From the NCBI RefSeq assembly GCF_026020075.1, contig NZ_CP102772.1:496001-560000 (forward strand): a stretch of 64,000 nucleotides of DNA. Reading direction: 5' to 3'. Below the pieces are notes generated by a model. The model was not told where the DNA came from. It made no database searches and saw nothing but the letters and a program-made list of their open reading frames with translations. This DNA comes from Bosea sp. NBC_00550 (lineage in GTDB: Bacteria > Pseudomonadota > Alphaproteobacteria > Rhizobiales > Beijerinckiaceae). Shown in pieces: positions 48,426 through 61,309 of this stretch (the stretch's first letter is position 1; every line of letters begins with the position of its first letter). The translations under genes were made by a program, and so were the position numbers.

Positions 48426-48743
48426 TCAGGGCGAGACCAGCTTGAGCCCGACGATACCGGCGACGATCAGGCCGATGAAGGCCAGCCGCAAGGCGTTTGC
48501 CGGCTCGCCTAGCAGGGCGATGCCGAGGATCGCCGTTCCGATCGTTCCGATTCCGGTCCAGACCGCATAGGCGGTGCCGACGGGCAGCGATTTCAGCGCG
48601 AGACCCAGGAGTCCGAGGCTCACCACCATGCTGACAGCGGTGAACAGCGTCGGCATGAGCCGGGTGAAGCCATCGGTGTATTTCAGGCCGATGGCCCAGC
48701 CGACCTCAAACAGGCCCGCGACAAAGAGATAGAGCCAGGCCAT
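48426..48743 (-). CDS. sugE: Guanidinium exporter of the SMR family (SugE/Gdx)
   Basis: A 105-aa four-helix SMR transporter. The sequence [20 protein letters not shown], with Glu13 (the binding glutamate of SMR proteins) and the LKYTDGFTR loop, fits the Gdx/SugE subtype, whose members export guanidinium. The [11 protein letters not shown] motif also agrees. The start is the ATG at 48743 with AAGGAG 7 nt upstream; the longer frame is unlikely. A candidate guanidine-II riboswitch precedes it. Confidence 0.9.
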
Positions 48744-48750
48744 CGCGGCG

Positions 48751-48812
48751 CTCCTTGATGATGCGGCGCAGTCGTCCACGCGCGATATGGGAAGTTCCGA
48801 GGTCGCCCTCGG
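48751..48812 (-). promoter_or_regulatory. Candidate guanidine-II (mini-ykkC) riboswitch
   Basis: Reading the minus strand, a perfect hairpin CCGAGG-GCGA-CCTCGG (48812-48797) is followed after 15 nt by a second hairpin GCGTGG-ACGA-CTGCGC (48781-48766), then 9 nt and the AAGGAG of sugE. Two short hairpins with a CG-containing tetraloop ahead of an SMR gene match guanidine-II design. The second loop is the consensus ACGA; the first is GCGA, one base from the ACGR consensus, and the second stem has two wobble pairs. Confidence 0.5.
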
Positions 48813-48956
48813 TTTGGAAGCTATGTTGCGCGCCGATAACATCAACCGGCTGAATCTGGCGCGCGTGCAAGTTGTGCACAGTTGGCTCGCATACACATCT
48901 TGCCGCCTCACCGAGCCCCAAACTAGCTATGTCGTTGGGTAAGGGGTGGGGCTAAC

Positions 48957-60977: not shown

Positions 60978-61309
60978 ATGCCTCGTTCATTCAGGCCGCT
61001 CCCTTCCTCTGGCTGCTGCTGGCAGTCGCCTTCGAGATCGCCGGCACCTACCTGCTGAAGCTGTCGGACGGGATGAGCCGCCGCCTGATCGGCACGGGCG
61101 GTATCGTGTTCGTCATGGGCGCCTTCGCGGCCCTGGCGCAGGCGATCAAGGGCATGGACCTCGCCGTCGCCTACGCGGTCTGGGGTGGTGCGGGGCTCGT
61201 GATCACCGCGATTATCGGCGCGCTGGTCTTCGGCCAGCGCATCCGGCCGATCGGCTGGCTCGGCATTGTCCTGGTCATTGCCGGAGTGGCCGCGTTGAAG
61301 CTGGTCTGA
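60974..61309 (+). CDS. SMR-family transporter, second of a pair
   Basis: A 111-aa four-helix SMR protein starting with a GTG at 60974 that overlaps the first gene's stop. It has the conserved glutamate (LLAVAFEIAGTYLLKLSDG), AVAYAVWGGAGLVITAIIG in the third helix and LGIVLVIAGVAALKL in the fourth. It is translationally coupled to its partner. The substrate is unknown; polyamines and quaternary cations are known for other pairs. Confidence 0.83.
   Translation: MNASFIQAAPFLWLLLAVAFEIAGTYLLKLSDGMSRRLIGTGGIVFVMGAFAALAQAIKGMDLAVAYAVWGGAGLVITAIIGALVFGQRIRPIGWLGIVLVIAGVAALKLV

Follow-up and report, generated by a model that had tools for sequence, protein, structure and literature searches.

A Divergent Guanidine-II Riboswitch Ortholog before sugE in Bosea, and Guanidine-II Elements before a Duplicate ATP-Synthase Subunit a Gene

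Introduction

Is the pair of hairpins that stands before a sugE gene in this DNA (the window, a 64-kb stretch analysed as a whole) a guanidine-II (mini-ykkC) riboswitch, and has it kept the features of a working one? The first-pass annotation had raised it as a candidate, leaving room for a variant or for a chance pair of hairpins. The guanidine-II class was reportedly validated by Sherlock and colleagues in 2017. According to the literature on the family, each ACGR-looped hairpin of an intact element would help to bind one guanidinium, and the two loops would then kiss, which would free the ribosome-binding site and let the exporter be translated. The features of the window on which the question turns are as follows.

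48426-48743, minus strand: sugE/gdx, a small multidrug resistance (SMR) family gene of SugE type, 105 aa (NCBIfam, Pfam)
48743, minus strand: ATG start codon of sugE, read from the letters
48751-48756, minus strand: ribosome-binding site AAGGAG, read from the letters
48766-48812, minus strand: the hairpin pair as a whole (P1, spacer and P2)
48766-48781, minus strand: P2 hairpin, 6 bp, GCGTGG-ACGA-CTGCGC, with tandem U-G/G-U
48772-48775, minus strand: P2 loop ACGA, canonical
48782-48796, minus strand: spacer of 15 nt between P1 and P2
48789-48794, minus strand: CTTCCC, a candidate anti-Shine-Dalgarno stretch within the spacer
48797-48812, minus strand: P1 hairpin, 6 bp, CCGAGG-GCGA-CCTCGG
48803-48806, minus strand: P1 loop GCGA; ACGA or ACGG in intact relatives
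48763-48815, minus strand: match to the genus model R1, 34.9 bits, E 9.5e-6
48767-48814, minus strand: match to Rfam RF01068, 18.2 bits

Results

The hairpin pair and its relatives

The identification of the downstream gene as SugE/Gdx was borne out. Its open reading frame scores 143.1 bits with the NCBIfam SugE model (cut-off 126), and Pfam places it in the SMR family. Among PDB sequences it matches chain 6wk5_B best (E 7.2e-33), an entry titled "Multidrug resistance protein, SMR family" that we take to be Gdx-Clo. A search of 67 same-genus genomes, the window's own included, found sugE at an identity of at least 79% in 56, and in all 56 the genes plsX, fabH, ihfA and merR stand upstream of it.

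The letters before this gene read exactly as the annotation had claimed: two minus-strand hairpins, 15 nt apart, precede the AAGGAG of sugE; the P2 loop matches ACGR, the P1 loop is off by one base, and the second stem has two G-T pairs, one U-G and one G-U. The architecture of 6 bp, 15 nt and 6 bp is that of the two-hairpin class, and the ribosome-binding site of a guanidine-related gene is close by, with 22 nt from the end of P2 to the ATG. In guanidine-II RNAs, as the text of one study describes them, the hairpins are G+C-rich and the spacer is mostly 13 nt or more (PMC5486947). No second pair of this kind (stems of at least 6 bp, RCGR loops, 22-46 nt apart) occurs on either strand of the window.

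A check against the Rfam mini-ykkC model, which the annotation had recommended, gave a divided answer. RF01068 aligned end to end, over all 48 positions of the element, yet the score was 18.2 bits (E 0.29 in a 601-base search), under the gathering score of 32 bits. When the whole window was scanned at gathering score, tRNA alone reached the threshold and the hairpin pair was missed; no other guanidine riboswitch family matched around the site at E up to 10. Because the case was open by Rfam alone, we consulted the orthologous leaders of relatives.

Two GG-ACGR-CC hairpins are kept in 33 of the 56 same-genus sugE leaders, and the orthologous leaders of four genomes of the genus (G016, G038, G024 and G041) score 32.2-36.4 bits with RF01068, at or above its cut-off. 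We built a covariance model, R1, from 32 of the 33 intact leaders, which had been picked from the leader alignment by eye and pattern; the window was left out, as was G041 because its P2 is shifted. On the 64-kb window R1 scored the element at 34.9 bits (E 9.5e-6), and the next best place at 17.0 bits. The R1 members themselves score 51.4-74 bits, by construction, and G041, with loops intact, 26.8 bits. R1 matches (E <0.05) also lie shortly before the gene at 45 of 80 named sugE loci, mostly from Alpha-, Beta- and Gammaproteobacteria.

Covariation of the two stems, another check that the annotation had suggested, held across genera and was thin inside the genus. Among same-genus leaders one pair is changed on both sides, a number reached by 370 of 500 shuffles; these leaders are too alike, so a wider set was needed. 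In other genera both stems covary, with 90 doubly changed cells against 24.0 +/- 4.5 after shuffling (0/500 shuffles reach 90), in an alignment that had been fitted to the structure and that comprised 57 matches from 54 of the 80 named loci, chosen for having matched and including about three stray rows.

The orthologous place before an orthologous gene, together with the R1 match, argues that the element is a guanidine-II riboswitch by descent. Judged by sequence and position, the window pair is thus a divergent ortholog of the class, and the annotation's candidate stands. A chance pair of hairpins might be read from the Rfam score below gathering and from the whole-window scan that misses the element, but it is extremely improbable: the orthologous leaders rule it out, the R1 E value is 9.5e-6, and the pair is unique in the window.

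Two further observations concern the genus. In 28 of the 33 intact leaders the third pair of P2 is unpaired (mostly U-U or U-C; for example L047 332-392), a genus-specific quirk of guanidine-II that is kept across species. In addition, three same-genus genomes carry RF01068 matches below the cut-off, at 24.7-25.5 bits (L262 1017-1070, minus; L263 991-1046, plus; L264 1027-1073, plus).

How the window copy deviates

The annotation's word "variant" was apt, as the GCGA loop breaks the ACGR rule that the P2 loop obeys. Compared with a similar intact leader, L017 of genome G024, the first base of the window's P1 loop has changed from A to G, and P2 has two C to U changes that make wobbles of a C-G pair and a G-C pair. 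The next pair outward of the six in P2 is also broken. Every one of the 98 loops in the 49 named leaders (of 80) that could be parsed is ACGA or ACGG and none is GCGA, in the output of a parser that took any first base but gave A-loops a bonus; the remaining 31 named loci yielded it no pair, some lacking the element and some having odd stems. Among the 56 leaders the window's is the only GCGA loop on a well-paired P1; G030 and G053 have these letters at the same place, where they lack a paired stem. The predicted energy of P2 is -5.6 kcal/mol in the window, compared with -10.4 in L017; the P2 that is commonest in the genus comes to -8.0. In the crystal structure, as reported in the text of PMC5486947, loop A7 hydrogen-bonds the partner's C11', stacks and shapes the pocket-forming turn, and altering either loop reduced the protection of both.

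The A to G change in the P1 loop and the two P2 wobbles suggest that the switch is probably weakened or being lost; that is, the window copy is homologous but probably impaired. It could instead be a fully working guanidine-II riboswitch in which GCGA is a tolerated P1 loop and sugE is still guanidine-inducible. This seems to us unlikely, though it deserves some weight. Both stems are kept and the P2 loop is canonical; P1 is predicted to be slightly more stable in the window than in L017 (-10.4 vs -9.0 kcal/mol); the distance from the P2 loop to the start codon, 28 nt, is also that of many intact kin; and the 28 intact relatives noted above live with an unpaired third P2 pair. The C and G of both loops, which form the kissing pairs in the crystal as described there (PMC5486947), are unchanged, and the available text of another study calls mini-ykkC loops "less rigidly conserved" (PMC2864571). 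Against a tolerated variant stand the absence of GCGA from every other well-paired P1 of the 56 leaders and from the 98 loops of other genera, and the stepwise loss seen in related species (below). GCGA is moreover a loop that we take to be of GNRA type, with its own fold.

The leader might now be constitutively ON, damage to the switch raising exporter expression without guanidine, and mutated guanidine riboswitches in B. licheniformis and E. coli strains are described in the text of a review (PMC12186494) as giving higher expression of the associated genes even without guanidine. We consider this doubtful for the window, where the ribosome-binding site is predicted to be partly paired (mean unpaired 0.41). 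Pairing of CTTCCC with AAGGAG is absent from the predicted minimum-energy fold of the window leader.

Decay in sister species and a second guanidine-II locus

The sugE leader is non-intact in 23 of the 56 same-genus genomes, the window included, and the forms that it takes are graded. In some leaders the stems persist and the loops are changed (ATGA and ATCG in G012 and G051, GGGA in G044, AAGA in G021); G025, G035 and G022 have lost one hairpin; G004, G048, G019 and others show no hairpin.

The window's own genome also has a second guanidine-II locus, outside the window.

G000:C1:2961558-2962829 (L055): second guanidine-II locus
G000:C1:2961628-2961942: gdx2, a SugE-like SMR gene
G000:C1:2961987-2962829 (L055 3988-4830): guanidine-II element (32.3 bits) and atpB2, a duplicate ATP-synthase subunit a gene

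The product of gdx2 is about 51% identical to the window SugE and scores 112.3 bits with the NCBIfam SugE model, below its cut-off of 126. The gene is flanked by guanidine-II elements, one of 25.5 bits before it, under the Rfam cut-off, and one of 32.3 bits behind it (RF01068). All 12 sugE-bearing genomes whose gdx2 has its own guanidine-II switch, the window's own included, have a non-intact sugE switch, against 11 of the 44 others (Fisher p 2.4e-6). Because the genomes are related, this association is weaker than that p value, and phylogenetic tests on a quick genus tree, in which 18 of 53 inner branches are open, disagree on its strength. Of the independent pairs, 3.9 pointed in the same direction, 0.0 in the opposite one, and 2.1 showed no difference (median p 0.125). 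A custom, roughly optimised Pagel-type likelihood test returned p 0.0012, which became 0.0008 when G063 was taken as a carrier and 0.018 when the window was scored as intact. The gdx2 of G063 has no RF01068 match and a weak R1 match before it (20.5 bits, E 0.011); G063 was not a carrier in the main count, and counting it gives 13/13 vs 10/43. In G033 and G049, gdx2 has no riboswitch match and the sugE switch is intact.

These counts make a link between decay of the sugE switch and the second locus suggestive. We infer that in the window genome the copy has drifted, leaving the switch weakened or on its way to loss, and that the guanidine response is carried by gdx2, which has guanidine-II elements of its own at another place on the chromosome. 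That the sugE element is a guanidine-II ortholog, probably weakened or being lost, with gdx2 taking over, is the reading that we consider quite likely. Counting against the compensation part of it, 11 of the genomes without riboswitch-gdx2 have a non-intact sugE switch as well.

Seventeen other SMR paralog loci (L245-L261) gave no guanidine-II match (Rfam, E up to 5). Two other SMR-like sequences occur in the window's genome: a distant SMR-family open reading frame at window 61004-61306 on the plus strand (G000:C1:557004-557306), 34% identical to the window SugE, and an SMR-like sequence in two pieces at G000:C2:35095-35280 (L056 1480-1781), on the second contig (0.58 Mb), which has no R1 match at E up to 2.

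A duplicate subunit a gene behind guanidine-II elements

The second riboswitch of the gdx2 locus is followed, 54 nt on, by atpB2. This is a full ATP-synthase subunit a (336 bits, NCBIfam PRK05815.2-4, cut-off 225), and the genome's other atpB, 60% identical to it, lies elsewhere. Two atpB genes are present in 10 of the 67 same-genus genomes, and each of the 10 second copies stands beside an SMR gene and a guanidine-II match; for three Bosea second copies the RF01068 score is 31.5-31.6 bits, just below the cut-off.

The arrangement extends beyond the genus. Among 397 sampled genomes of the order, more than one atpB gene is present in six others, and in five of these RF01068 matches over the cut-off 17-240 nt before the second one. 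The sixth, G237, has three atpB matches, none beside RF01068; its lone RF01068 match is on a fourth contig. A family sample of 151 genomes, probably Rhizobiaceae because a Shinella atpB groups with it, holds nine second copies that are 69-98% identical to a copy from Phyllobacterium. In eight of the nine an RF01068 match above the cut-off precedes the copy by 19-213 nt on the same strand; in G905, the ninth, a weak match of 25.0 bits lies in a similar place. All these distances run to the start of the protein match, the start codons being putative.

The Phyllobacterium copy is carried on a plasmid, pT1293b of Phyllobacterium sp. T1293 (NZ_CP088276.1), where an RF01068 match of 34.0 bits is followed after 95 nt by a lone atpB, with no exporter gene found beside it.

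L320 2363-3250, plasmid pT1293b: lone atpB, annotated "F0F1 ATP synthase subunit A"

In total, all 25 Rhizobiales copies that belong to two sequence types (16 in the subunit a tree described below and nine from the 151-genome sample) have a guanidine-II match upstream, one of them weak, a count that is favoured because the types were recognised partly through their riboswitches; the Phyllobacterium copy and that of G979 are 98% identical and so may not be independent. By comparison, 37 other atpB loci, among them L313 of G237, gave no RF01068 match (18 of the 30 best class-sample loci at gathering score, and sets of 10 and nine at E up to 1). Nor does any other atpB listed in the 151-genome sample lie within 1 kb of a listed RF01068 place, as compared row by row and by eye. 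The pairing of guanidine-II with atpB2 recurs across several Rhizobiales families, in two sequence types.

A different arrangement was seen in Sphingomonas parapaucimobilis (NZ_CP155756.1, L324), where an SMR transporter gene follows an F0 cluster (AtpZ/AtpI, A, C and further genes) at about 0.4 kb; this locus has no guanidine-II match.

Subunit a sequences of the duplicates

In the best tree, of 16 duplicate rows and 62 others, the duplicates fall into two groups, both starred. One comprises seven same-genus duplicates and lies beside most canonical copies of the genus; the other comprises nine from several families and lies beside the extra G237 copies and one copy from G378. The two groups may have a single origin, with which the starred branches alone are compatible.

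Around the essential arginine, members of the wider group have SRPxSHSVRLFAVMLAGH or a near variant, with G905 outside the pattern; the own genome's canonical subunit a reads SRPVSLSLRLFGNMLAGH at the same stretch. The valine of the wider group, four residues after the arginine, aligns with an asparagine in Paracoccus and yeast and, numbered from the arginine (aR210), falls at the E. coli aN214 position. It is present in 120 of 121 subunit a sequences (P0001 and the best 120 of 5637 homologs), and Ensifer, Shinella, Aquamicrobium, Phreatobacter and Brucella/Ochrobactrum are among the valine-type set listed in those best 120 of 5637. The window genome's own type keeps the asparagine. A second difference concerns a phenylalanine two residues before a conserved glutamine, presumably aQ252 by numbering: 56 of 61 other rows have it, against 1 of 16 duplicates (2 of 25 with the nine family-sample copies), and both duplicate groups mostly carry a smaller residue in its place. 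A fixed rule for columns separating duplicate from other subunit a sequences found two, and no more.

According to the text of a review (PMC9447477), aN214 and aQ252 adjoin aR210 at the proton input, the two channel pKa values are shifted by aN214L, and glycine or hydrophobic residues occur naturally at aN214 in some species. On our reading atpB2 would be a guanidinium-tolerant isoform; alternatively, it may serve gene dosage or have another use.

Discussion

The window riboswitch appears to be in the course of drifting, and its orthologs in sister species include both intact and lost ones, so that natural changes in a two-hairpin sensor can be put to the test. The second locus raises a broader idea. 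To our knowledge, the cause of guanidine toxicity to bacteria is not settled. If the ATP-synthase subunit that bears the essential arginine has a guanidine-controlled duplicate, the proton channel becomes a possible target. We propose, tentatively and with a little less than even confidence, that Rhizobiales including this genome make an alternative F1Fo subunit a (atpB2) on sensing guanidine, many of them together with a guanidinium exporter, and that this isoform would keep the ATP synthase running when the normal one is disturbed by guanidinium, which mimics the side chain of the essential arginine at the interface of subunit a and the c-ring. If this is true, guanidine toxicity would have a concrete target in bioenergetics, guanidine-II riboswitches would control genes of a new kind, and the drifting sugE switch of the window would be one end of a rewired regulon.

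We found no literature that joins guanidine riboswitches with ATP synthase, atpB or its duplication. "ATP synthase" is absent from the main texts of PMC12186494, PMC7266159, PMC2864571 and PMC7736828; the available text of PMC5486947, PMC7544219, PMC3766115 and PMC9447477 names no ATP-synthase gene under a guanidine riboswitch; and that of PMC9971707 mentions ATP synthase only under Na+-I riboswitches. The association of guanidine-II with atpB2 is thus unreported in the main texts searched and may stand in supplementary gene lists. Nothing useful was found in the octylguanidine literature. The mini-ykkC regulons described in the text of PMC3766115 comprise multidrug transporters and urea/agmatine use.

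Comparison with Known Systems

The window element resembles the guanidine-II riboswitches of RF01068 in its two short G+C-rich hairpins, 15-nt spacer, ACGA loop in P2 and place adjoining the ribosome-binding site of an SMR gene. It differs from them in a P1 loop that is GCGA rather than ACGR, in the tandem G-U of P2 and in its score of 18.2 bits. Like the window, the genome's own second locus has an element before a SugE-like SMR gene; unlike the window, it has kept its ACGR loops, and a second riboswitch follows before the duplicate subunit a. Guanidine-I, -III and -IV riboswitches are described in the literature as having the same ligand as guanidine-II and similar target genes, with different architectures. 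Na+-I riboswitches, too, stand before ATP-synthase genes, and some ATP-synthase components are said in the text of PMC9971707 to be under their control. Ligand, RNA class and target are different there, whereas the guanidine-II elements described here precede a duplicate subunit a alone, often beside an SMR exporter.
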